The translations under genes were made by a program, and so were the position numbers. Below are positions 1,027 through 58,500 of a stretch of 64,000 nucleotides of DNA, one piece after another. A model generated the notes under the pieces. It was not told the DNA's origin. It searched no databases and saw nothing but the letters and a program-made list of their open reading frames with translations. Every line of letters starts with the position of its first letter. Positions within the stretch are counted from its first letter, which is position 1. The DNA comes from Sycon ciliatum (taxonomy: Eukaryota > Porifera > Calcarea > Leucosolenida > Sycettidae), in contig NC_088655.1 in NCBI RefSeq assembly GCF_964019385.1, forward strand, positions 23,657,576 through 23,721,575, given 5' to 3'.

Positions 1027-3623
1027 CTGCACCAGGCAAAAGCAAGCACACACGACAGCCATGCGACCACCGGGGAGAAACGAAACAGACAAACAGACAG
1101 ACACAAATAGAACAAGAATGAATAAACAGAGAAAGAAAGTGAATTAGTGAGAGGAAGATCAATGCATGAAGACTGGCAGAAGAGGAAGGGGTCCCGTCAT
1201 CCCCGGATCGAACGGGGAGCGTAATGAGGCAAAAAATAACTTTGCAAGCCATTGCTGGTCTTGCCGAAAGAGACAAGGCATTCTATAAAATAAAAACAGG
1301 GAGGTGCTGCCCCCCCCCCCACACACACATACACACACAAACAGGAATACTTGTATACACACACACATGCACATACCCTGGCAACAGCTGGTGTTGAAGG
1401 TGATGTCGTCCAGAGCGATGTCTCCAGTGAAGCTGGTTCCAGTTATGCCTTGGAACTCCATCTACAGAATATGTAAAAAAAATGCATTGGTAAGGGGTCG
1501 TCGCAAATGTATTTTGTCGTTCCCAAAATGAACATGATTCGTTTGGGGGGGGGGGGGGAGGGGTGAGAGTCAAAATCGCACCGACACTGTGCATATGACA
1601 TGTACATGCATGCGATTTCCATCGTCCAGCATAGCAAGCTGTGTTCGTTTCAGAGGGAGGGGAGGGAGGGAGGGAGGAGGGAGGGGAGGGAGGAGGGAGG
1701 GGAGGAGGAGGGAGGGAGGGAGGAGGGAAGGAGGGAGGAGGGAGGGAGGAGGGAGGGAGGAGGGAGGGAGGGGGGAGGGTCCGAGTACGAAAGGAACGAT
1801 GTTCGTTTCAGGGATGACAGAAACTTTTTGCGATAACCCCCAAGATGGGTGAGTGTGACTTATAGAAAGAGTGCGAGAGCAGGCGGGGACGATGAGAGGC
1901 ATGATGAGGATTGCGATGGTGGTGGTGGTGGGGATGAGGAGGATCAGGCTGGTGTTGGCGAGGACGATGAAGACGGTGATGCCAAGAAGATATTGGCGGT
2001 GTTCAAGCATCCGCTGTTGTCAAGTTCAGACGTGTCCTCAGTCGTATGATGATTCGTGGTTTAGTGTCGTGTGCCTGGCTCGTAATTTCTCGCAATTGAC
2101 GGTGTTAGATGAAGCGCAGTGACATTTTCGTTTTCTTTACATAGATCGTTGTTACGGAGACGAATGAACACGGCTTAAAGCACTTTCAGCTGCCTGAAAC
2201 TCCAGTAAACCTGGTGAAAGCGGCCTCTGGGCTTAGCGACCACCTGCTCTTAACGACCGTTTTTCCATGCACCGACAGTTCGACACAGACACTGTGGGAC
2301 CTGGTTCTAAAGACCACCTGGCTTTAATGACCGCTTTTGCTTGCGCCGTGGGGTGGTCGCTTAAACCAGGTTTTACTTTCTATTTGCACAGCAAGAATCA
2401 TCATGATCATCAGTGTTGACTAACCTGGTATGCGCCGTCGGCAAAGAACGGGACCACGGCGTTCTTCCACGAATTTCCCTGATTGCCGCTCAGCGTCCAT
2501 AGCCTGACACGCCTCACGCCCACGCGAATGAAGACGTTAAGAGTGCCTGCACGGCACGACACGGCAATCGCAGACACACAGTACGCACAGGAAGGGATCA
2601 GGGCACAACACATGTATACGTATACGCATATGTAGCCTGCAATAATAAAAACTCGGTAAATTCCATCAATTTTAGGGTAAGGAGAAAATTTTACATATAA
2701 GAAGAAAAAGCGATGGAAAAAGGATGATTCGAACAAGTGTTCGTACAACACTCCATTCCATCGATTGATATTGTTTAACTCAATGTCACTTCAGCTAGTC
2801 CTCCCGGTTGCGATACTAAATTCAAACCGTCAAACAAAACTTACAACCGCACACTAAGTACATGTGTACCGGGCTGTACAATGTCATGTTGCTGCTCTCA
2901 CGAGCACATTGCGTTGAAGACTCCGCTCATACACACACACACACACGCACGCACGCACACGCACGCACACACACACACACACTGTACGCACCGGTCGTTG
3001 CTCCGTACATATGGTACCAGAAGCTCATTGAACAGCCACCTTTCTGCACGGGGCACAGGAAAATCGGAAGAAGAAAACAGCAAACAGCGTTCAGCAGGTT
3101 GACCACAACCGAGCAGCCCACAAGACTGCACAACACCCTTTGCAAGACTGTCCGAAGAGAACTTTCAAGTAGCAGTCATTGAAAACACTTCACGGTCCGC
3201 AAGACTCGGCTGGACACCAGCCGAGTTTTCCGCATCCGCAGGAGCGCCACCGCCCTCTATAGATCAAGGCGCAATTGTAGCTCCTAAGTGGTGGGAGGCG
3301 AGTAGATCAGACCCACCACCAAAGTGGTCAAAGACCGAAAATCCCATTCACGGCATCCATGCCATTGTAAGGCTACCGTGATGGAGTGAAACTTTGTTTT
3401 AAGAAGAACACCGACGAGATTAACTGTCTCTGTAGAAGAATTAGTACTCACACACACACACACGCGCGCACACACCCGTACACACACAGTCTGTACTCGT
3501 ACGTACCGTGGGTGTGTAAGATGGCGAGATGATGGCGGCCGCATGTCCTCTGTTCCGTGGCAGGGAGGTCTCAATGTACACATACCAACCTGCAGCAAAC
3601 AAGCAAAGAAACCAGCGACATGA

Positions 3624-6754: not shown

Positions 6755-7699
6755 GTAGCAGCAGCAACAGCAGCAGAACGAGCAACGACAACGGTGACAG
6801 CAGCAGTAGCATTGGTTAGAAGCAATGGGCACATAGGCATCAGTGACAATTATACTGTAAGAGTTGAATCCCCAACAGGGTACAAAGTATAGCGTTTTAA
6901 CGAGAGAGAAAATCCATCGCTAACTCAAGCAACGTTACTAGTGTGCTGTTCCTTGACTCTTGTGTACTAGAGAAATAGAAGACGGGTGTGTGATGGCAGG
7001 GTCGGTAGACTTTGTACCCGCCAAGTGGGAGAAAATGGCAAATCGTTAAGCTTTGGGCTCGTCACACTTTTAACTCTTACAGAACACGCATAGAGGGCTG
7101 ACACACAGTCAGAGCCGCTCAACTGATAACAGTACGAATAACTGACAAACTGATTTCACAAACTTGTGATTTCAAGCCTCCTTCGCATCGTATATCCAGG
7201 TCAACTCAGTCTTGCTACACTTCCTCCCGAAACAACATCTTTGTAAGGAGTTATTGTGCTCAAGAAATTTGTTGCCGCAGTCGTCGTCGTTGTTGGTGTT
7301 GTTGTTGTTGTTGTTGTTGTTAGGTGGTGGTGGTAGTGGTGTTGGTGTTGGTGGTGGTAGTGCTGATGGCAGTGGTGGTGCTGGTGGTGGTGGTGCTGGT
7401 GGTGCTGGTGGTGCTGGTGTTGTCGCTATCAATTGACTCAGTACTGTTTTCTGATGATCGCTTAGTGCGAGAAACTTGGAGTTAAAACATTTTTCCGTCC
7501 TCTTATTGTTTTTACTTCTTCTTACCGGAGTTATTTCCGTAGGTATGATCAGTGGCAGGTCCGGTATGCAGACTGCCAGTACCGGCTGCGTCACGTCGCC
7601 AGTCAAACTGATCACTAAACTCCTGCACCCAGCCGTTTGTGCCTGTTTCAAACGTTGCTACCTTGCTTGCGTCGCATTCTGGGTAATGAAGAGAGGAGC

Positions 7700-8288: not shown

Positions 8289-11200
8289 GGCAGGCAGACA
8301 GACAGACAGACAGGCAGGCAGGCAGGCAGACAGACATACAGACAGACAGACCGACAGACAGACAAGCAGACAGATGGAACAAGCGCACAGGAAACACAGA
8401 GAATCATCATAAAGAAGGACCCGGGCAGCCTGCAGAGAGCCTAACCATAGCGTGAGCGATAGTTATGGCCTATCGCTCATGCTATGGTTGTAAACCAATG
8501 GTCATTGAAAATATGAATTCTCCATAGCATGCGTTTGGCAAATCAAACACCACTCAACGAGATGAACTTCATGATTCATGATATAGTTGGATGGCCGCAG
8601 TCAGGCGCACCTACTGGCGAGACTCAAAACTGACCGAGGAAGCCAAGAAGAGAAACAACGACAAAGAACACACCATGTGCCACATTCACAACTGAACATG
8701 TTGCGCGAGAATCTTTTCTCGCATATCTCGCTGTGCGGCCGGCCGGCGCGAAATGCAACGCCTCGTTCAAGATTTTTTTTAAAGCGGGATATCCTCACCG
8801 CCACAGAATATAATACCAACAAATACCAAGCAGACAGCATGCAGACACCATGCAGACAGCACGCAGACACCATGCAGACACCATGCAGACACCATGCAGA
8901 CACCATGCAGACAGCACAGACACCATGCAGACACCATGCAAACAGCATGCAGCAGCATCCACAACACTCACCGTAGGTCATGCAGCACGCCGACGCAAAC
9001 GCGACGTCGTCAATGGCAATGTCACTACGGAAACCACTGCCACGTGTTGCAACGAATTGAATCTGGCACACACACGCACAGACACAGACACGCACGCAGA
9101 GACACACACGCACACACACAGACACACACACACACACACGTACAGCGGGAGAAGAGAGCAACAATAGAACACGAGGTCAGCAGTGGCATGGGAGACCCCA
9201 CCCGCAAAAGATAGCCAGGAAAGTCCAGATGTCAGGCATCTCTATACACTCCCCCCCCCCCCCACACACACACCCATGGCATCCATCCCTATACTCTTTC
9301 CGGGACCTCCACCCCACTCCACCCACACACACGTTCCCCCAGAAAGGTGGACAACACTTCTCGGTATCATCCAAAACGACATGTACTCAGACACGAGAAA
9401 TGGACCCATGGTGCATTCCATTGGGCAGCGAGAAAGAATTTTTTTTTTTTTGCGATGGTGGAAAATAAATTTCCTTAAAACTCTCCAACTTCACTGCAGC
9501 GTTTTCTTTCCACTTGTGAACACCTGCATCCCTGAACAGGCAGCTCTCAGCTCTCAGCTGCACCACAAGGAGAAAATACAGTAAAACCTGTAACTAAAGA
9601 CCACCCTGACTAGCGACCAGCCTGGTACTACAGTAAAACCTGTAACTAAAGACCACCCTGACTAGCGACCAGCCTGGTACTACAGTAAAACCTGTAACTA
9701 AAGACCACCCTGACTAGCGACCAGCCTGGTACTACAGTAAAACCTGTAACTAAAGACCACCCTGACTAGCGACCAGCCTGGTACTACAGTAAAACCTGTA
9801 ACTAAAGACCACCGTGACTAGCGACCAGCCTGGTACTACAGTAAAACCTGTAACTAAAGACCACCGTGACTAGCAACCAGCCTGGTACTACAGTAAAACC
9901 TGTAACTAAAGACCACCGTGACTAGCGACCAGCCTGGTACTACAGTAAAACCTGTAACTAAAGACCACCCTGACTAGCGACCAGCCTGGTACTACAGTAA
10001 AACCTGTAACTAAAGACCACCCTGACTAGCGACCAGCCTGCTACTACAGTAAAACCTGTAACTAAAGACCACCGTGACTAGCGACCAGCCTGGTACTACC
10101 GACCCTTTCGCCAGGCACGGACGGTCTCGCACTCACATACGGTCGTGCGGTGCGAACCTCTTACTAAGGACCACCTGCCACTAAAGACCACCTTCTCTGG
10201 CCCCAAGGGGGGGGGGTCGCTAGTCACAGGCTTTACTCTACTGCCAATATTCCGACCGCTGGGCATCATCAGGGCAATGCCCTGCTGGCAGTAATGGATT
10301 CAACAGCCTGTTCGGGGATGGAGATGTTCACAAGTGGAAACCAAATTAATGACAAAAAAAATCACGGTTCGCATGAGACTCGGCAGGAAGCCGGGCTTTC
10401 CGCATCCGTAGGAACGCCACCACCCCTCAAGGATCAACAAGTAAATGACAACAAGTAAACAAAGAAAAGCACCTACAGGTTACGGTATAACACCACCAGT
10501 TACTTGACAATCAGAGTCATGCCAAAACATTGCACGACACTGACCGATGGTATTGACGTTCCACGACTAGCTGCCAATCAGCTCTAGAACGTTTTCTTCG
10601 CACTTATAAAATTATCCCTGGCTCTCCGTCCGAGTCCATAAAATAAAATTAAAATAAACCATCAGCAGTAGGCCGTACCGGCAGCGCCGAGAGATAAGCC
10701 CATTGCGCATTGCCAAATACGGAAGGTATGAGTAATGCATGTGACTACGCTGGGATCAGCAATGCACTGTTCAACACCCCCAGATGACCATGCCCAGGTG
10801 GCTGTGTGGGGTGTTATGTGACTACGCTGGCATCAGGAATGCACTGTTCAACACCCCCAGATGACCATGCCCAGGTGGCTGTGTGGGGTGTTATGTGAGT
10901 ACACTGGGATCAGCAATGCACTGTTCAACACCCCCAGATGACCATGCCCAGGTGGCTGTGTGGGGTGTTATGTGAGTACGCTGGGATCAGCAATGCACTG
11001 TTCAACACCCCCAGATGACCATGCCCAGGTGGCTGTGTGGGGTGTTATGTGAGTACACTGGGATCAGCAATGCACTGTTCAACACCCCCAGATGACCATG
11101 CCCAGGTGGCTGTGTGGGGTGTTATGTGAGTACGCTGGGATCAGCAATGCACTGTTCAACACCCCAGACGACCATGCCCAGGTGGCTGTGTGGGGTGTTA

Positions 11201-16539: not shown

Positions 16540-16734
16540 TAGGCCTTTGCGGATAATGGCGGCAGAAAAATTGGCAGAATTCGGTACTTTTTCTGGTAAG
16601 TTTCATGCATGTTTGGTATGTGGATAAAGAAATGGAGCAGAATTCGAAGAATTGCCCGCCATAAGGTTTGTATGGTTCTGCCAATTTCACTGCTTTTCGA
16701 GCAGAATCTTCTACCTTTCCGAGCAGAATCCGCC
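16540..16734. mobile_element. GCGGATAATG/CAGAATCCGCC element, copy 1
   Basis: Runs from GCCTTTGCGGATAATGGCGG through GGCAGAATTCGGTACTTTTT, TTCATGCATGTTTGGTATGT and GCCCGCCATAAGGTTTGTAT to GAGCAGAATCCGCC. Imperfect inverted ends. Related copies are at 17,132, 24,593, 28,171, 30,176, 45,940, 46,990, 47,590 and 48,712, in both orientations. Confidence 0.75.
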
Positions 16735-18483: not shown

Positions 18484-18724
18484 TACAGTAAAACCTGCGA
18501 CTAACGATCGCCCCTTGGGGCCAGAGAAAGCGGTCTTTAGTGGCAGGTGGTCCTTAGTTAGAGGTTTGCACCGCACAACCATGAATGTGAGACCGTCCGT
18601 GCCTGGCGAAGTGGTCTGTAGTACCAGGCTGGTTGCTAGTCACGGTGGTCTTTAGTTACAGGTTTTACTGTAGTACCAGGCTGGTCGCTAGTCACGGTGG
18701 TCTTAGTTACTGGTTTTACTGTAA
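18484..18724 (-). mobile_element. CAGTAAAACCTGT element with two terminal 52-bp units
   Basis: Left end CAGTAAAACCTGCGACTAA; right end repeats TACCAGGCTGG and GGTCTTTAGTTACAGG twice before TTTTACTGT. It is the reverse-oriented relative of 9,579-10,238, which has ten copies of the same terminal unit. Confidence 0.8.
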
Positions 18725-22539: not shown

Positions 22540-24230
22540 TGCTGCGAATGGCGAGGTGATAATTCGATCACTTTGAAAGCGAACAGATACATGGCGCGCG
22601 TAATCTACCTCGAAACAGCAGCTAATTCAGCGAGCAAGATAATAGAACCATTCGGGACTGACCTGCCAGGACAACTCGCCAAGGAACCTCCATGCTGGCT
22701 GGTAGCGCTTAGCCAAGCGCACGCTCTTGCGAAGCAGTTACAAGGCTCTCCCTTGTCCTTGGTGGCGGAGAGGCCACCTCTGAAACACTAGAGACTTCGT
22801 CTAGCTACGCACAGTCAAGAGCTCTCGCGTAGGGGAAGGAACCACCTAACAGATGCTCAGACGTGAGGGCAAAAGAGAGAGAGCATTGGCCAAAAGCAAA
22901 GAGCAGCGCGGCGCAGACAGGCCTTATACAGTTGAGCGAGCATCTGCAGTTGTCAGAGCACCATGCTTTCCAGCAGCTAGGCGGGGATTGATGGCCAGCA
23001 AACGTGAAATCATGTAAAACCACACATGTATGTACATTTAGTATGCGGACTGTGTTCGTAGAAGTTGCTGACGGACGCAGGGACTCTCACCCGTAGCCCG
23101 TACCATGAGGAAATGTCCGTCCTGGGTCTCGGAGCGCCAGCCAATTGTCAACACGACTCTACCATTGCTAGCCTTGCTCAGCGGTACTGCATGTCTGTGG
23201 ACATGCTAACACGCGGCCCGGTCATGCATATCATGCCCTATTGATGGCGGCTGACGGCAGTGACTTGCAGTTGAACGCTGCCAAGGATCTAGGAGTGTCC
23301 TGAATATATTTCGTGTTGTCAGCTCGTGCGGTCGAGCAACGACAAGTCACGGTCGATAGCAGTGGGGAGGAACGTGGCTTGGCCCTAGAACGCCGGTCAG
23401 CCATCTAGCCGTGTAGCTGCTTACCTAATCGGAATCTTCATACCAGCAGATCCTCGTCGATGTGTTGTCTACGGGCCTGCATTCAGATCGCTGCAACGCA
23501 AGCACAATCATAAGCCATGCACATGCGCATGCAGATGAAAATCCGACATTGACAACTCGGTCGCGTCGACTTCTTCCCAAGTCTTCAAGATCTCGCTCTC
23601 GTGCAGGGAGTTCTAGAGACCCCTGCGCGGCGCCGCATGCCTAGTTTGGCCTCGTGCAAGTAGTTTCATGCCGGGCAACTGGGCGGTGCAGCTTGGGGAA
23701 GATGGCCAACTGGACCTGCGGGTACATTCAGAACACGTGCTGGAAAAGATTATGATGTGAGCTGTCATCGCCATCGCGTGATATACCAGGTCGATTAGAT
23801 AATGATTTTTTTTACAGGCTGTCGGGTGCCTCCAGTGCTGGTACGGCCTCGCACCATGCACCATGTGCCCCGCTATTCTATTGGTTCGTATCAGCACCGG
23901 TATTCAAGATTCTTCATTACACTGTACTACTACTAGTACACACAGTCTACAGGATGACATCATGAAGATAGCAGCAGCTACATCATAGTACGTGTACATA
24001 ATCATCGACATCACCGTGTTGGCATCACGTCATCATTTTTTCATCATGGCCTACTGTAGGAGCTGTGGCATCCTTTGTGATCCACAGCAAGAAGGCATAC
24101 ATGTACATCATGTTGTACATTGTACATGTATGGTGATGTAAAATAGACATAATAAAAATTAATAGACATAACAATAACATAACATAACTTCGTCCTGCAG
24201 CTTTTCTGGCACCTTCTATACTTTGCATAA
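22540..24230. other. No gene recognised
   Basis: Mostly unique sequence with short frames. ACATGT-type palindromic runs begin near 24,100. Confidence 0.4.
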
Positions 24231-24235
24231 GACTC

Positions 24236-24287
24236 AATCTGCGGACAGAACTGTTTCGTCCTTTGTGGACTCATCAGCGCAGCACAG
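24236..24287 (-). ncRNA. Hammerhead ribozyme (type I-like, short stem III)
   Basis: On the minus strand the sequence reads GCTGCG, then the core CTGATGA (24,271-24,277), stem II GTCC-ACAAA-GGAC, core GAA, stem III ACAG-TT-CTGT, and C17 before CGCAG. CTGCG and CGCAG pair as a perfect 5-bp stem I. Every invariant core position (CUGANGA, GAA, the A15.1-U16.1 pair and a GUC cleavage triplet) is present. Cleavage is predicted between 24,244 and 24,243. Hammerheads with so short a stem III are known from animal retrozymes and Penelope-like elements and often act as dimers. No such protein is seen nearby. Confidence 0.88.
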
Positions 24288-24486
24288 AGGAAATGAGGCC
24301 GAACCTGACAGCAATGAAAAATATTTTTTCCAAAGCCAGATTTTAAACCGGGCGCGAACGTACCTTGCCAGAGTGCTCAAACTGACAAGTCAGTGAGCTC
24401 TGCACAACGCAAACAGCAAAGGCACTACCTCACATGAGAGTGCTCAACTGCCACAAGAGCAGGAGCGAAATACTCAATATTCTGTG
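24244..24486 (-). mobile_element. Retrozyme-like unit between two hammerhead motifs
   Basis: The distance between the predicted cleavage sites of the two same-sense hammerhead motifs is 243 nt, the size class of small circular retrozyme RNAs. Part of the body (for example GTGCTCAAACTGACAAGTCA, on the plus strand) recurs in reverse orientation at about 55,840-55,950 beside a third hammerhead copy. It encodes no protein. Confidence 0.6.
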
Positions 24487-24516
24487 GACAGAACTGTTTC
24501 GTCCTTTGTGGATTTT
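24478..24516 (-). ncRNA. Partial hammerhead ribozyme (5' part missing)
   Basis: The minus strand reads ATCC-ACAAA-GGAC, GAA, ACAG-TT-CTGT, C, CACAG. Stem II, the GAA core, stem III and the cleavage site are kept, but the CTGATGA strand and the 5' half of stem I are absent (replaced by AAAAATCC). Inactive alone, it marks the upstream direct repeat of the retrozyme. Confidence 0.7.
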
Positions 24517-24592
24517 TACTTAACATATTATTATTTTTACATCAAAACATCAAACACACCCTGCCAAAGAGTTATGAAGGTAAAGAAGGGGT

Positions 24593-24735
24593 GGGAGCTA
24601 GCCCATGGCGGATAATGCGCGAAGACCTGGAAGTCTCTGCTCAAAAAGCAGTGGAATTGGCGAAACCATACTAAGATACTAACCACATGGCAGTCATTTC
24701 CTTGAATTCGGCTCCGTTTCTTTACCCAAATACCA
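24593..24735. mobile_element. GCGGATAATG element, copy 3 (diverged)
   Basis: GGCGGATAATGCGCGAAG, then CTCAAAAAGCAGTGGAATTG and CGAAACCATA; the right part ends with ACCAACCATGCATGAAAC. Confidence 0.55.
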
Positions 24736-24972
24736 ACCATGCATGAAACAAAGGCCACGGTAAGCAGCAGCTACGTTGTACAACTTGGAGTCGTGTTGCT
24801 GGTGTGTGAGGTCGGCTAGAGAGCGCGTTTGGTGGTGGAGGTGGAACTACGTTGTGCATGAAACACACCCGAAACTGAGAAAGAGTGCAACATGCTGCCA
24901 ATGTGTCTGCCGGCATGCAGTATCCACCGAGGGCTAATGGGAGCAGTGACATGTAATAATATGTTATTATTA

Positions 24973-28170: not shown

Positions 28171-28372
28171 ACACCGGCGGATTCTGCTCGAAAATGTGGC
28201 AGATTCTGCTCGAAAAGCAGTGAAATTGGCAGAACCATACAAACCTTATGGCGGGCAATTCCTCGAATTCTGCTCCATTTCTTTATCTACATGTACATAC
28301 CAAACATGCATGAAACGTACCAGAAAAAGTACCGAATTCTGCCAATTTTTTTGCCGGCATTATCCGCTGGAC
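28171..28372. mobile_element. GCGGATAATG element, copy 4 (reverse)
   Basis: CCGGCGGATTCTGCTCGAAA, GGCAGAACCATACAAACCTT, AAACATGCATGAAACGTACC and GCCGGCATTATCCGC in order. Confidence 0.75.
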
Positions 28373-30175: not shown

Positions 30176-30392
30176 TTGGTGGATTTTGCTCCGGCGAAAA
30201 GGTGGCAGATTCTGCTCGAAAAGGTGGCGGATTCTGCTCGAAAAGCAGTGAAATTGGCAGAACCATACAAACCTTATGGCGGGCAATTCCTCGAATTCTG
30301 CTCCATTTCTTTATCCACATACTAAACATGCATGAAACTTACCAGAAAAAGTACCGAATTCTGCCAATTTTTCTGCCGGCAGAATCCGCTGG
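30176..30392. mobile_element. GCGGATAATG element, copy 5 (reverse)
   Basis: GTGGCGGATTCTGCTCGAAA, GGCAGAACCATACAAACCTT, AAACATGCATGAAACTTACC and GGCAGAATCCGCTGGACC. Its left end is tandemly repeated (three GATTYTGCTC units). Confidence 0.75.
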
Positions 30393-33260: not shown

Positions 33261-33415
33261 AGGGGCTTCTTTTCTCCCAGTTCCAGATCAAATGTTGGAG
33301 CGCCATGATGACAGTTGTGGTTGCAAACAGTCGCTCTTCTGCTTTAGATATTTTATTAGTAACCAATGAAAGACCTTGAAGTAGAGAGTCAGTCCAGTGT
33401 CCAGAGAGTCAGTCC

Positions 33416-33606
33416 GTTCCTGCCCGTCGTCAAGTGACGACGGGCAGTGGAATCTGTTCCTGCCCGTCGTCACTTGACGACGGGTAGTGGAATCCGCCCG
33501 TCGTCACTTGACGACGGGCAGTGGAATCCGTTCCTGCCCGTCGTCACTTGACGACAGGCAGTAGAATCCGTTCCTGCCCGTCGTCACTTGACGACGGGCA
33601 GTGGAT
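33416..33606. repeat. Tandem array of five perfect palindromes
   Basis: Five units of about 40 bp (one shortened to about 34), each containing TGCCCGTCGTCA plus CT or AG plus TGACGACGGGCA, separated by GTGGAATCCGTTCC. Unit 1 has the reverse-complement centre (AG) relative to the others (CT). Unit 2 has one mismatch (GGGTA) and unit 4 one (ACAGGCA). Confidence 0.92.
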
Positions 33607-35732: not shown

Positions 35733-36443
35733 TCACAAGATGGTGCAGAGAGTTTTCTGCCACGTGGATCTTGTCGATCGTGTCGATCGCAACGTATGCG
35801 TTTTGCTTGTGCCCGGTGATCCCACGTGAATCGCAGTCAGCGTACCGCCACGCGACACCGGTGGAGAGAACGTGCCCAGTCCCATTAGGGCCGTGGACGG
35901 GCCCGTGGACAGAAGCGAATGTCTTGGAGACGCCACCGCCGCAAGGCCGCCGACAGGTGCCGAGTTTCGCTTGCTCTGCTTTTCCGGCGTTCCCAACGGC
36001 TGCGGCATGCTTTTCGACCGAGTCGCCAGCGTTCTCACCATGGCAACCAGCGAGAGGCGCGCCATGTGGCCGAACAGCTCGTTGACGTTCTTGCCCTCCT
36101 TGGCGCTCGTCTCCATGACGATGGGCACGTTGCGACGGCTGACGCCCCAGGACTTGCGCACCAGCTGCCGCACGTCGTCAACGGCAACCTGCCGCTGCTC
36201 AAGGCCGACGTCGCACTTGGTGCCGACGATGATGATGGGCGTGCCGGAGGAACGGCGCAGACGCACCACGTCGCGGTAGATCTCCTGCAGGCTGTCTAGC
36301 GATTCGCGCGACGCCACGCTGTAGACAAGCGCGAACACGTGACCCGAAGTGATGTACAGGTGCCGGTTGTTGTTGTAATGCTGACCCGTGCCGGCCGTGT
36401 CCAGGATCTCCATGGAGACCGTGCCCAGACCGTCAACCGCAAT
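35733..36443 (-). CDS. Ras-like GTPase exon 2
   Basis: Acceptor GTCCGCAG/ATTG; begins [18 protein letters not shown], which continues the YRHP end of exon 1 exactly as in Ras-family proteins. Carries [20 protein letters not shown] and the C-terminal tail ending KTLCTIL, then TGA. Confidence 0.93.
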   Translation of the reverse strand: MAVDGLGTVSMEILDTAGTGQHYNNNRHLYITSGHVFALVYSVASRESLDSLQEIYRDVVRLRRSSGTPIIIVGTKCDVGLEQRQVAVDDVRQLVRKSWGVSRRNVPIVMETSAKEGKNVNELFGHMARLSLVAMVRTLATRSKSMPQPLGTPEKQSKRNSAPVGGLAAVASPRHSLLSTGPSTALMGLGTFSPPVSRGGTLTAIHVGSPGTSKTHTLRSTRSTRSTWQKTLCTIL

Positions 36444-39400
36444 CTGCGGACATGCACATCGGGAAAAGCCACAACGGGGGAAAAGCAGAGATTACAAATA
36501 AGCAACGTGGAGACAACAATTTTATGATAGCAATGAATATTATCAGTTCCGCGGTCCTTCCACACAACAACGAAGTCTCAAAAGAGTTTTTTCCAATAAA
36601 AATAATAAAAAAAGAAGAAGAGAAGAAATCGATTGTGGGATGACCGCGGAACTGATATTGTTCATTTCTATCATTACAGCAGAGATTGTTTTTGCTTTTG
36701 GGTTCAATATCCTTTTTTCTGGGTTTGCATTTGTATTGCATTGCTATTCATTGTGTTAATTTTGCCCGTACCAGAGGCTCGTGAAAGCAGTGGAGAAAGA
36801 CTTCAAGAGTTACGTCGAGAACCGGCACAAAGTATACGACCAGATCCTATTATTTTCTTGTGGCTGTCTCGAGGAACACAGCAATGATTGGCAGATAAGC
36901 ATGCAGCAGGAGTATACACTATACAGGCAAACGGGGAAGCATTCAATGCAACAACATCGCAGCAACGGCATAGTTCCATCGATAGCTAGGCTGTCACAGA
37001 CAACACCAATACACAATTGTAGAGCACAATTTTTGCTTCCAATGCCACAGATCGAAGAACATGCAATGAGAGAAAATAGAACGGAAAGCATTCGTGAATG
37101 TGGAACCTGGTAGGCAGGTGAATAATATGCTAGCTCCCTGCACCCAATACATTGAACTCTGCCATAGCACTCCCTGCTCATGCAGAGCGCAGCATCAGCA
37201 GGTCGGAGGATGGGGGGGGGGGGGGGGGGCATAGCTCATAGCTCCCAGTCACAACTGACCAGTACCTTCACAGCACACTATGATAACGCCCTCTACCCAT
37301 ACGGAGCGCTGCACCCGCAGGTCAGGGGTTGCGTAGCCACCAGTCATAGCTGCCTCTGCACCCATACAGAGCCAATCACCTGCACGTCTGGTGTGTGCGG
37401 GGGGGGGGGGGGGGGGGGACATAGCCCCCAGTCATAACTGCCTCTGCACTCAGACAGTGCAGTGCCCCGTACCAAACAAGAATAAGAGAATGAAAAAGTG
37501 TTTACTCCGAGTTTCACGCACTAAGCAATCATCAGAAAACACTTTTTTCATAAACTTATTATTGTTTGAACTAGCTCTGCCTTTATTGCACACTCTATTG
37601 GACAGCCTGGAACTTCTCTGTTGTACAGTGTCCACTGAGTACCTGCAGGTCTGCAGTGACAGGGTACACTATGAAAACAGCATGCATTCAAGTGGAGCTC
37701 AGTTCCTGCAGGTCTGCTGTTGAATGGACAGGTGGTGCATTGTCCAATGCGTACAGAGGGGAATCCAGGCTCACTTCTGTAGGATTTATAGTCGGGTTTT
37801 GACTATTTTCAAGTATTTTGAGGCCAATTTTTGCCAAAAGCCAAGAGTTGAAATCCCAGTCTCATCATAATATTCGTTATGGACTATAGTACGCACTCGT
37901 CCTGCAGAGTGCAGCACAGTTGAGTCACAGTGTATGCAGTGGTATGCTGTGCTTGGTGAAATTCTAGCCTGGTCGCTCTTCGGCACCCGACATTACTGTA
38001 ATCATGTATGTTATACAGTCAGACTTCACTTATCCGGTCCTCTTTCATCCGGGTCCCTCGCCACCTGGAAGAAAATAGCTGGTTTCAGATTTACAGCATA
38101 CGTGATGCATCCAACATAACCAGTGTTCGATTATCCGGTTCCCTCGCCTATCCGGATATTTTTTGTGGAGAACGGACGTGTGCGGTCAGACTGTAATCAA
38201 CACACTGGGACAATAGAGAGTACGTGATGGCACAAATAAACACCCAGTGCTGCCATGCACGTGTCCGAGTTATCGCCCACCAGTGATATGTATTGTGCTC
38301 TACAATACGGGAACTCGACATGAAGAATCCCGACAACGCTCGTCGTTTCCGGGCGTAATGCAAAGGAACCTGTAACAGTGTTCTGCTCTCCGTCCACGTA
38401 AAGAAATCACATGGAACGTGTACTGGGAATTTCCCCGTACCAAATTTGGCAGTTTTTTTGCCGGATTTAAATGATACCCAGTGGATCTGTACGTCTTTTC
38501 TTTGCGTGTGCCACAAGATGGAGAATCTGCACTCTGTAGAAGACTGGAAGTAAAACACGAGAAGCCGTAGACTCCAACCCAGACACCTGTTGTCTACGTG
38601 ATTTCTCAACCTCATTACAGACAACTTCGCTAATAACGACTGCGGATATAACGACAATTCGCGAATAACGACAGAATTTCTATGCCCAGAGCAAAGTCCC
38701 ATCTAACTGTAATGCACATAATGAGAGTTCGGTATGAGGACACTTCGCGAATAAGGACACTTTTTCTATACCCGCCGAGTGTCGTTATCCACAAAGTTGA
38801 CTGTACGGTCTTGGAAAATTCACCTGTCTGAAACTGATCCGAAGCTGTCAATCCGAAGTTTGACAGAAAAAACCCCGCATAGGTGCAGTACTCTCGGGCG
38901 GCAGAGGACAGAGCATCCAAGAACGAACTGGCTAGGATTCACCAAGCACAGCACACCTACATAACACATGGATACACGGTGACTCAACTGCATATAGACT
39001 ACTGTACACGAAGAAATAAATAATAAGAACCGGGTCTAGGCCACAGGGCTACAGGGCTGCTGGGTTTAATCCCCCCCCCCCCCTGGTCTTTGCCTCCCAA
39101 CAGTTAATGCGCAGGTACAGAGCCATCGCACATCATAATTGCTTACACTGGCAATATCTACAATCTAGAGTACTGTGTAACCCCCCACTAATCTAGACTT
39201 CCCAGTTCCAGGCACTCTACCTGCCACTTTTGAGGTACAACGCCACTTCAACAATAAACAGCACCAAACAGACAACTATTTACTGGCACAAAACGTGTTA
39301 ACTTGCATTTAAGATATTGCTTGCTCGGCGCTTCAGACAATTTGTATTCCGTCTTTGTCCCAACGTGCAGGGGGGGGGGGGGGTGATGCTTTGTATAAAC

Positions 39401-45939: not shown

Positions 45940-46103
45940 TAGGCCTTTGCGGATAATGTCGCAGAAACATTGGCAGAATTCGGTACTTTTTCTGGTAAGT
46001 TTCATGCATGTTTGGTATGTGGATAAAGAAATGGAGCAGAATTCGAGGAATTGCCCGCCATAAGGTTTGTATGGTTCTGCCAATTTCCCTGCTTTTCGAG
46101 ACT
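45940..46103. mobile_element. GCGGATAATG element, copy 6
   Basis: GCCTTTGCGGATAATGTCGC, AATTCGGTACTTTTTCTGGT, GCCCGCCATAAGGTTTGTAT, TGCTTTTCGAG; the right end is truncated. Confidence 0.75.
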
Positions 46104-48711: not shown

Positions 48712-48882
48712 GCGGATTCTGCTCGGAAAGCAGTGAAATTTGCAGAACCATACAAACCTTATGGCGGGCAGATCCTCGAATTCTGCTCCATTTCTTTATC
48801 CACATACACCAAACATGCATGAAACTTACCAGAAAAAGTACCGAATTCTGCCAATTTTTTCCGCCGGCAGAATCCGCTGGAC
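48712..48882. mobile_element. GCGGATAATG element, copy 9 (reverse)
   Basis: CCGGCGGATTCTGCTCGGAA, GCAGAACCATACAAACCTTA, AAACATGCATGAAACTTACC and CGGCAGAATCCGCTGGAC. Confidence 0.75.
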
Positions 48883-55563: not shown

Positions 55564-58500
55564 CTGTGCATGACAATACACATGATAACAGAGTTAATAC
55601 ACATGCATATCGCAGGGTTATAGCCAAAAGGGGGGGGGGGGGAGCAGTGCCCGTCCCTCTCTCCCCCCCCCCTCCCCCTCCTTACTCATTTCTAGATTTC
55701 GGTGGCTCTTAGTCCATATAACGTAAATGTAGCCACCGATTGATCGCCTTCAAATTGTGTCAATTTTTGATGATAGTGTACGCCGCAGTACAGTGTCATT
55801 TGAATGCACACGTCTAAACACATGACCATGCAGAGCTCGCTGACTTGTCAGTTTGAGCACTCTGGCAAGGTACGTTAGGGCCTGGTCTTAAATCTGGCCT
55901 TGGAAAATTTTAATTTTTCGTTGCTATCAGGTTCGGCCTAATTTTCTCTGTGCGGCGCTGAGGAGTCCACAAAGGACGAGACGGATCTGTCCGCAGATTG
56001 TGTAAACACAGGACCATGTGGATGAGGTCGTGCACCTCGTGCACACGCATGTATGGTGGCATACACGCAAAACATCACGTGGTGATGCATCGCATACTGT
56101 ACAAGCAGAAATATTCGTCTGGAATTTAATTTCGTCTTTTTCATCCAAGGAGCTTTTGGACTAAATTAAGTGCCGGACTAATATCGATTTGTCCAGCTTT
56201 TCAATACACTCTTATGATCCACGGACCAAATTTACAACCGGACGAACTCCCTTTCTTTGGAGTTGGACGAAATTATTGACCCACGAAATTTTCTGCTTAT
56301 ACTTGAAAGTACGGTACATGAAAACTCTGAAAACAAAAAATGGTACGTTGTCTGTAAGTCTGTCTGACTGTATGAGCAGAACATAGAGCACTGAGGGCCA
56401 TTGATTTTGTTGTTGGCTATTTTGATTCGCTGGCCAATGATGTACTGTAAATATACAAATTTTCGGCAGCTGTTTAATTTCGGCTATATTCGGCACCAAG
56501 CGTGTGTTTACCGCCATATTGCCGGGTGTGTCTTTACCACCATATTTATCAACCATATATTCGGCACCGACCCAAAACGCCTAAATTAAAACGCCGATGA
56601 CATTTTCACAGCATCTGTCGCACTATACCATGCCCTCTATCCCACGCCGAAAATAAATCGCCGCCGAAATGTCAAAAATCGTGAAGTGCCGAAATTTTGT
56701 ATCTTTACAGTACACGTAAGTCCTAACACTTTCTTTAACCAGATGCTCACTCACCAATGGCTGTGACGCACCGCCGACGAGGAACTCAAAGGCGTTGAAT
56801 TGGAAGTTGAAGACGTTGCTAGCGCCGCCAGTTGCTACGGTGACCTGAGCCAGAACGCTGCCAGGGCAACTGTCAGAGAGGAAAAGGGAAGATATTAAAG
56901 GGGAGGTTAAGGGTAAAATCAAAATTTCACCAGTTGTAGTCTTCGGCGTGCTGAGTCGAATGGTCTTGGTCCGAGAAAGCTGAGACGCTCCCTTCCTACT
57001 TGAATCCCAATCGAACTCGCGCACTTCCACCGAAACGGTGACTGCGCCCTACTAGATGGGGATTTGTATGCAAAATGTCACTAAAAGCGCCATTTCGTTC
57101 TTATAAAAGCACGGATGACCGCGATTGGCCCATATGTTGTAGTCTTTTGGACGCTGAGTCGACTGGTTTTAGTCCGAAAAGGCTGCGATGCAGCGTTCCT
57201 CCTTTATTCCCAATTGAATATGGTTGAACAAGCGGTCACGTGCTCCTGGGTGCCCAAATCACCTGGTCACAGCGCCAGCAGGCGACAACTTTCACACCAA
57301 GGTTCAACTCGAGTGACAGGACTGCACCCCAAAGAGGTCAAACAGGCTAGTAAGTTGTACCCTGCAGGCACGGTGACCAGGTGACTGGTGTACGCAGGAG
57401 CACGTGACCGCTTGTTCAACCATGTTCGATTGGGAATAACGGGGGAACGCTGCATCACAGCCTTTCGGACCAAAACCAGTCGACTCAGCGTCCAAAAGAC
57501 TACAACATATGGACCAATCGCGGTCAACCGTGCTTTTATAAGAACGACATGGCGCTTTTAGTGACATTTTGCAAATCCCCATCTAGTAGGGCGCAGTCAC
57601 CCAGTTTCGGTGGAAGTGCGCGAGTTCGATTGGGATTCAAGTAGGAAGGGAGCGTCTCAGCTTCCTCGGACCACGACCATTCGACTCAGAACCCCGAAGA
57701 CTACAACTGGTGAAGTTTTGATTTTAGCCTTAACTTCCCCTTTAAATTTTCGTCTTTCACTGGGGCTAGATATTCCATTTGGCCTGAGGGAAGACTAGCC
57801 AAGCCTGCTTGCGGATGCCAACACAAAAAGGCTGATGATGATGATTCCCACCTTCCAACCCGGCAAATATTTAATTTTGATAAAAACGATTCAAAGCCTC
57901 TCAATTATTTTGATGATGATGAGATAAGGAAGAGGGGCAGAACAAGTGACGGAAAAAATTCTTGGATCTCGGTTGAAACCCGTGGACAGCATCCGTCGTA
58001 ACCATACAAGCTCGGCAGGGCAGTGCATGATAAGCGATATTCCACGTAGAATGAGCCCAGAGAGGGACAACTCATCATAGCACCAAATCAACAAAGGCCA
58101 GATCTGACATAGCAACAGCTTAATGCAGTACAAGGAAATGCAGTACAATGAGTAGTGGCTGATTGTCCAGTAAAAAATCCCCATGCTGAGCACTGAGTGT
58201 AGTGAGCACTTACAAACCATGGATTAATAAAAAATTACTAGATTTTATAAAATTCACTGATTATATTAGGAAAAACCGGCAGGGATCCCAAGAGATGTGA
58301 AATTCATTTTTGCCAGGGAAAAATCGAGGGTTCGGCAGCATGATTTAACTTACTCATCGTTAATCACTTCCAGAATGGTTGACTGGTCCGAGGGATCACT
58401 GCTGGGCGAAGCGAAGCAACGGTCGACGAATATATCCAGGTTGGAAAGCACATCGTTGGCTACGAACGTCTGCACAAACACTGGCTCACCTGTGGGTGAC

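Follow-up and report, generated by a model that had tools for sequence, protein, structure and literature searches.

A hammerhead motif on the minus strand

The window analysed here, a 64-kb stretch of the Sycon ciliatum genome, raises the question of whether a short hammerhead-like motif on its minus strand belongs to a genuine ribozyme family, what kind of element carries it, and how such an element was inserted. The first-pass annotation had claimed a complete hammerhead, and inspection of the sequence together with a motif grammar recovered every listed part at 24282..24239 on the minus strand. The hammerhead (24239..24282) is composed of stem I CTGCG/CGCAG (24282-24278 and 24243-24239), the core CTGATGA (24277-24271), stem II GTCC/GGAC with the loop ACAAA (24270-24267 and 24261-24258), the core GAA (24257-24255), and stem III ACAG/CTGT with the loop TT (24254-24251 and 24248-24245). 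C17 lies at 24244, and the cut is predicted between 24244 and 24243. The conserved core CUGANGA...GAA...NUH, stems I to III and the open stem I are those of a type I hammerhead. The full-length match of the Rfam model RF00163 (Hammerhead_1), at 24283..24238, scored 28.2 bits (E = 1.6e-4, in a 1.1-kb stretch), but this score falls below the cut-off of 34, and a scan of the whole window at gathering level was empty. The proposed comparison with the type I covariance model thus bore out the fold by a full-length match and did not reach the gathering score.

The motif grammar, which demands the core, a 4-bp stem II, a stem III of at least 2 bp, NUH and a 5-bp stem I, fitted the 64-kb window twice, at 24277 on the minus strand and at 7451 on the plus strand. 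The second fit (7446-7488, plus strand) is unrelated to the first. It has stem I GTTTT/AAAAC, stem II TCGC/GCGA with T-A as the first pair, and the triplet GTT, and has no Rfam match. The grammar was found in 0 of 300 simulated first-order Markov windows and occurred once in 9,931 second-order windows. We also searched the whole genome (538,412,230 bases in 313 contigs) with a strict core pattern, which gave 741 + 697 = 1,438 exact matches against 0 + 0 for the reversed control. The earlier view that the motif is unlikely to arise by chance agrees with these counts.

Two copies of the carrier element in the window

The element that carries the complete hammerhead, copy A, has a length of 280 bp (24233..24512, minus strand). 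It contains a full 243-bp unit from cut site to cut site (24244..24486, minus strand, 47.7% GC), which is preceded by the 5'-truncated half-hammerhead of another unit (24487..24512, minus strand), reaching from stem II to C17 with CTGATGAG absent. The half-hammerhead lies 243 bp upstream of the complete one, in equal orientation and within one insertion. On the other side, ATTGAG (24233..24238, minus strand) closes the 11-nt stretch that separates the cut site from the 3' end of the element, forming its final 6 nt. Possible target-site duplications of copy A are weak, with a 9/11 match between TATGTTAAGTA on the 5' side (24517..24527) and TATGCAAAGTA on the 3' side (24219..24229), both on the minus strand.

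A second, 5'-truncated copy with a single 3'-terminal hammerhead, copy B, was found at 55831..56002 on the plus strand, with the equivalent of the cut site at 55991/55992. It shares 88% identity with copy A over 175 aligned bases. Its core is damaged, GAG replacing GAA, and the copy scores 20.5 bits. Copy B is flanked by 16-bp target-site duplications with a 15/16 match, TAAACACATGACCATG at 55815..55830 and TAAACACAGGACCATG at 56003..56018 (plus strand). According to the first-pass annotation, no other feature of the window would predict a hammerhead; this does not hold, given the half-hammerhead 243 bp upstream and this second copy at 55.8-56.0 kb.

No coding signal was found for the element, which we call family 1, when ten open frames at 20.9-28.5 kb, one of them overlapping copy A, were compared with Pfam: none gave a match, and no ORF with a reverse transcriptase plus GIY-YIG was found among them. 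Other features of the window include an interspersed repeat upstream of copy A (24636-24749), also present at 16600-16705, 28176-28316, 30233-30338, 45999-46072 and 48750-48825; a 52-bp tandem repeat of 10 copies (9577-10099), with two reverse-complement units seen by eye at 18616-18723; and a 40-bp tandem repeat (33413-33605) whose unit holds the perfect hairpin CTGCCCGTCGTC-ACTT-GACGACGGGCAG. A Ras-like frame at 35733-36491 has 97% identity over 94% of its length to the EukProt protein scpid57404, scpid identifiers being those of Sycon ciliatum proteins as described in PMC6526912. This one protein points to Sycon, or a calcareous sponge near it, as the probable host.

In the minimum-energy fold of the copy A RNA, a competing stem UCUGUG/CGCAGA is preferred over the active hammerhead stem. 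The fold is hardly more stable than shuffled sequences (z of -1.29 for 52 nt and 0.13 for 81 nt), under a model that is without tertiary contacts. The TGAG within 24233..24238 is pairable with an upstream CTCA; the energy model formed this CTCA/TGAG stem in the 81-nt fold, and an outer stem I with an internal loop is possible in copy A. CTCTGTG and CTGCG are alternative 5' strands for one CGCAGA partner (24278-24289 with 24238-24243, minus strand). Since both alternatives are retained in most printed copies, the family 1 hammerhead may be able to alternate between an active and an inactive fold.

Hammerhead families in the genome

At least two families are present among the core matches listed, which come from contig C1 only. 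The cores of family 1 read ACAAA...AGTTCTGTC or close variants of it, and those of family 2 read AGCGG...GTACGTC. RF00163 had at least 21 genome matches at E <= 1e-3, at least four of them above the cut-off, with 74 of 76,236 candidates scored; the best score of the other hammerheads among these matches was 34.9 bits. The family 1 element had at least 61 matches at E <= 1e-10 with 40 of 1,766 first-look candidates scored, some of the 61 being adjoining parts of one insertion, and its copies are spread across many contigs. A 20-base word from the body of the element had 0 exact matches in IMG/VR and GTDB contigs. The strict core pattern was present in one viral contig, IMGVR_UViG_3300000333_000017 of IMG/VR (L001), at 2143-2178 on the plus strand.

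Anatomy of family 1 insertions

A total of 57 family 1 sequences were compared: the 30 best matches (L010-L039, length-biased and including copy A), 26 loci taken by the core pattern, and copy B. The core-pattern set (L057-L060, L063, L065 and L070-L089) represents 26 of the 32 family-1-type places seen by eye among the matches listed. The other six are L028, which is already in the best-match set, two that are longer than the unit and run past the cut site, and three that were left out. The 3' hammerhead junction is present in 56 of the 57 sequences, the exception being L029. Counts are based on 54 copies, after removal of L029, which has no terminal junction, and of L088 and L089, whose flanks are identical to those of L065.

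The 3' ends are strongly recurrent. The exact TTGAG end at +11 from the cut site was found in 36 of 54 copies, and most others end within one or a few bases of it. The next two bases after the end are TA in 33 of 54 copies (15 of the 24 core-pattern copies), compared with 5.5% in flanks. Inside multimers, most units printed continue as TTGAG-TATTTCG or near it, so TA also represents the next bases of the template; a preference of the target for TA would look alike. All 26 core-pattern loci run on beyond the cut site and none ends at GTC, in a list that is blind to the bases after GTC. Target-site duplications of roughly 9-16 bp surround many copies. A duplication score of at least 9 was reached by 22 of 54 copies versus 0 of 158 mispaired flanks, and a score of at least 7 by 29 versus 2 of 158, leaving 25 of 54 copies below 7. 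By eye, the ends of the copies showed neither an LTR nor a primer binding site nor a polypurine tract.

The 5' ends are variable, with a few recurrent start points (unit positions 58, 83, 164 and 195). Lengths range from 46 to 556 bp, apart from L021 with 824 bp, which consists of two matched pieces with an unmatched stretch between them. Copies shorter than the 243-bp unit account for 25 of 54, and 38 of 54 do not exceed 303 bp (1.25 units). In the core-pattern set the 24 distinct copies all measure 46-240 bp, and three longer copies come from listed places outside it. Multimers with two or three hammerheads also exist (L019, L021, L029 and L033). An intact core was found in 35 of 54 terminal hammerheads, a number biased upward by the selection of 26 of the 57 loci by their core. 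Duplicated parts diverge by 6.3% within an insertion and by 7.8% between loci, with the lower value within the insertion in 17 of 21 cases (21 of the 54 copies, of at least 275 bp, with L014, L018 and L021 left out); this is weak evidence, which speaks equally for a circle and for a single common source. A layout with two arms was considered for family 1 and rejected: among the 57 sequences, opposite-strand pieces occur in L015 and L037 only, unlike the layout of family 2.

Family 2 and a resident Penelope-like element

Family 2 is a second family of hammerhead retrozymes, with a 352-bp unit, a GC content of 52.6%, and a palindromic GTAC loop on stem III. Its sequences were taken from the same genome (L040-L056, L061, L062, L064, L066-L069 and L090-L097). 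L051 and L068 were removed as repeats of listed insertions, and L046 and L052 are the two ends of one insertion. L090-L097 were picked for opposite-facing cores, which biases the share of two-arm copies and not the direction of the arms. Two arms were found in 15 of 19 insertions, all of them divergent, and in 7 of the 10 that were not chosen for this feature, with the window fragment excluded. Pairs of cores on opposite strands and less than 1 kb apart, counted by eye among the matches listed, were divergent in nine cases and convergent in none.

Of 34 outer ends of family 2, 15 fall at unit positions 235-252, 13 at 270-288 and 6 elsewhere, whereas uniform scatter would place 10.5% in the two bins together. 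Seven of the eight two-arm copies with both ends binned use one of each bin, the L046/L052 insertion is one more, and six two-arm copies have one end outside the bins. The two end points lie about 35 bp apart, and target-site duplications are about 13 bp long, with a score of at least 9 in 11 of 19 insertions versus 2 of 306 controls. The window itself contains a family 2 fragment without hammerhead (56498-56555, plus strand), which ends at the upstream end point and is surrounded by perfect 13-bp duplications TATATTCGGCACC (56485-56497 and 56556-56568).

A resident Penelope-like locus (L098, 852-3275) encodes an 807-aa frame with a GIY-YIG match (E = 3.4e-5). The frame also contains what we take, by eye, to be reverse-transcriptase motifs; the Pfam reverse transcriptase gave no match to it at 1e-3. 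By eye, the locus shows divergent arms, with an inverted left arm of 385 bp, one end about 36 bp longer as a tail, and a duplication of 12 bp that includes one mismatch, the insertion lying inside a tandem repeat. A minimal hammerhead-like motif is located at 3602. Further Penelope-like sequences were found (L099 and L100), and a copy on contig C13 also has opposite-facing pieces. We looked for sequence common to the Penelope-like loci and either retrozyme family; BLAST found none, with two loci compared in part and the third, a GIY-YIG locus, by its flanks only.

According to PMC11167929, the purified Penelope-like protein of Anolis initiates internally, at two neighbouring sites, and extends the two strands of the target; some of the Penelope copies in genomes also have a tail of 30-40 bp, which is optional. 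Such a tail, that is, two adjacent end points, is absent from family 1 and present in family 2 and the resident Penelope-like element. By our analysis, the insertion of family 2 would match a Penelope-type signature. As no sequence is held in common with the Penelope-like loci, this link is one of layout only, the match being to the layout of the resident element.

Proposed retroposition of family 1 and alternative explanations

Copy A is best interpreted as the old insertion of a non-LTR retrozyme that is non-coding and non-autonomous and follows a circle-based retroposition cycle, a reading to which we give a probability of a little over three in four. Catalysis, transcription and circles are predicted here from sequence. 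The units would be transcribed, the hammerhead would cut the transcripts to unit length (243 nt), and circles would be closed by a ligase of the host. The anatomy of the sampled copies shows that the RNA copied into DNA ran unbroken across the cut site, with the religated circle as the probable template. Reverse transcription mostly began at a single position, located at the foot of outer stem I and 11 nt 3' of the cut, and usually beside a target TA identical to the two template bases that come next. It halted at variable points, leaving 5'-truncated copies. The enzyme would be a non-LTR-type target-primed reverse transcriptase, presumably acting in trans.

The ends of the copies bear on the nature of the template. 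None of the 26 core-pattern loci ends at GTC, which indicates a template continuous across the cut site, either a religated circle or uncut RNA. A cut monomer copied from its own 3' end would yield GTC ends, so the sampled copies argue against the cut linear monomer as template. The multimers and the absence of a single common 5' end favour the circle, and the sub-monomer length together with a start at the hammerhead foot fits either. Counting against the circle are the minimum-energy fold without a hammerhead, the weak duplication of copy A, the 25 of 54 copies with duplication scores below 7, the recurrence of some 5' starts, and the 25 of 54 sub-unit copies, which fit a linear SINE equally.

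In the strongest rival, such a linear SINE, reverse transcription would copy the uncut transcript, the folded hammerhead would act chiefly as a landmark for the 3' start, and cutting would be irrelevant or abortive; we consider this unlikely. The linear SINE accounts for the family 1 3' end just beyond the hammerhead and for the many sub-monomers. It also draws on the Anolis Penelope-like element, for which PMC11167929 describes hammerhead mutants that insert normally in vitro and unprocessed RNA as the dominant substrate. It is at odds with the multimers of two or three hammerheads and with the lack of one common 5' end, though a few starts recur, and also with the 35 of 54 intact cores, a share raised by core selection. 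That copy A is a piece of the pseudo-LTR of a Penelope-like element with a minimal hammerhead is very improbable. A Penelope-like element of this genome does carry a minimal hammerhead-like motif, but stem III of copy A has 4 bp, and family 1 has a single arm that ends mainly at one point, whereas the Penelope-like element has divergent arms and two end points. This candidate was rejected for copy A on the absence of Pfam matches in the ten frames and of BLAST similarity to family 1 in the loci compared. Satellite DNA spread by unequal crossing-over, with no mobile element, would explain the tandem multimers and is scarcely credible for copies that lie on many contigs with target-site duplications around them and a recurrent 3' end. 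An origin of the motif by chance, for which the unrelated fit at 7446-7488 shows that single fits do happen, is rejected as negligible by the genome pattern counts and the Markov windows, and homologous copies stand in tandem and elsewhere in the window.

If the circle-based reading of family 1 is taken together with the layout of family 2, one genome may hold two hammerhead retrozyme families served by two integration machines, a proposal we make tentatively and at slightly less than even odds. In family 1, priming on a religated circle would be one-sided and would take place at one fixed base, at the ribozyme foot and 11 nt beyond the cut. For family 2, a Penelope-type machinery would extend both target strands, producing back-to-back arms with ends about 35 bp apart. 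If true, self-cut RNA circles would be a generic substrate for different reverse transcriptases, and the insertions would constitute direct genomic evidence of Penelope-type enzymes moving animal retrozymes.

Comparison with known systems

Plant LTR retrozymes (PMC4918200, as told in PMC7229834) are likewise hammerhead-flanked, non-coding retroelements with circular RNA. They differ in having type III hammerheads in LTRs, a length of about 700 bp and 4-bp target-site duplications, whereas family 1 has the type I fold and longer duplications. The Sm-alpha repeats of Schistosoma (PMC6155905) are also small non-autonomous retroelements with a type I hammerhead; their host is an unrelated platyhelminth, and the likeness is one of description only. 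Penelope-like elements with minimal hammerheads, as described in PMC11167929, share with family 1 an internal start of reverse transcription near the hammerhead. Family 1 differs from them in that it lacks an ORF, has a stem III of 4 bp and a single arm with one main end point, and starts 11 nt beyond the cut site, versus about 85-92 nt in Anolis (calculated from +26 and +111-118).

Metazoan non-LTR retrozymes are described in PMC7229834 as dispersed, non-coding elements with a type I hammerhead, tandem units of 150-450 bp, GC below 50% and target-site duplications of more than 4 bp. Family 1 resembles them in its type I hammerhead, 243-bp tandem unit, GC of 47.7%, lack of coding sequence and dispersal, and its target-site duplications exceed 4 bp, weakly so for copy A itself. 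The GC content of family 2 lies above the 50% limit. The first-pass annotation had likened the short-stem-III type I hammerhead to those of retrozymes and Penelope-like elements. The retrozyme part is upheld by the 243-bp spacing, dispersal, target-site duplications and GC below 50%; the Penelope part is not upheld for copy A, as none of the ten frames around it matched Pfam and BLAST showed no similarity to the fetched Penelope-like sequences. Membership of family 1 in the metazoan non-LTR retrozymes is thus supported by the sequence features tested. It departs from the long multimers of PMC7229834, with 38 of 54 sampled copies not exceeding 303 bp, and from the retrozymes as that source presents them in the end that recurs 11 nt beyond its cut site, for which the sections available describe no counterpart, and in its host, a calcareous sponge.

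Hammerhead repeats of the retrozyme kind occur in most metazoan phyla (PMC7229834). No report of hammerhead ribozymes in sponges (Porifera, Sycon, Amphimedon) was found in the part of the literature listings searched, and the calcareous sponges may represent an apparently new host lineage for retrozymes. Cervera and de la Pena (2020, PMC7229834) left the mobiliser of animal retrozymes open between LINEs and Penelope-like elements, the latter being a strong candidate, and the candidates appear in the available sections of that account without insertion-site evidence. The copies with exact ends described here partly answer which enzyme inserts animal retrozymes, and the common stop just past the cut site in most sampled copies gives a hint at how the RNA is copied into DNA. 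With the insertion signatures of families 1 and 2, the question of the mobiliser becomes testable.
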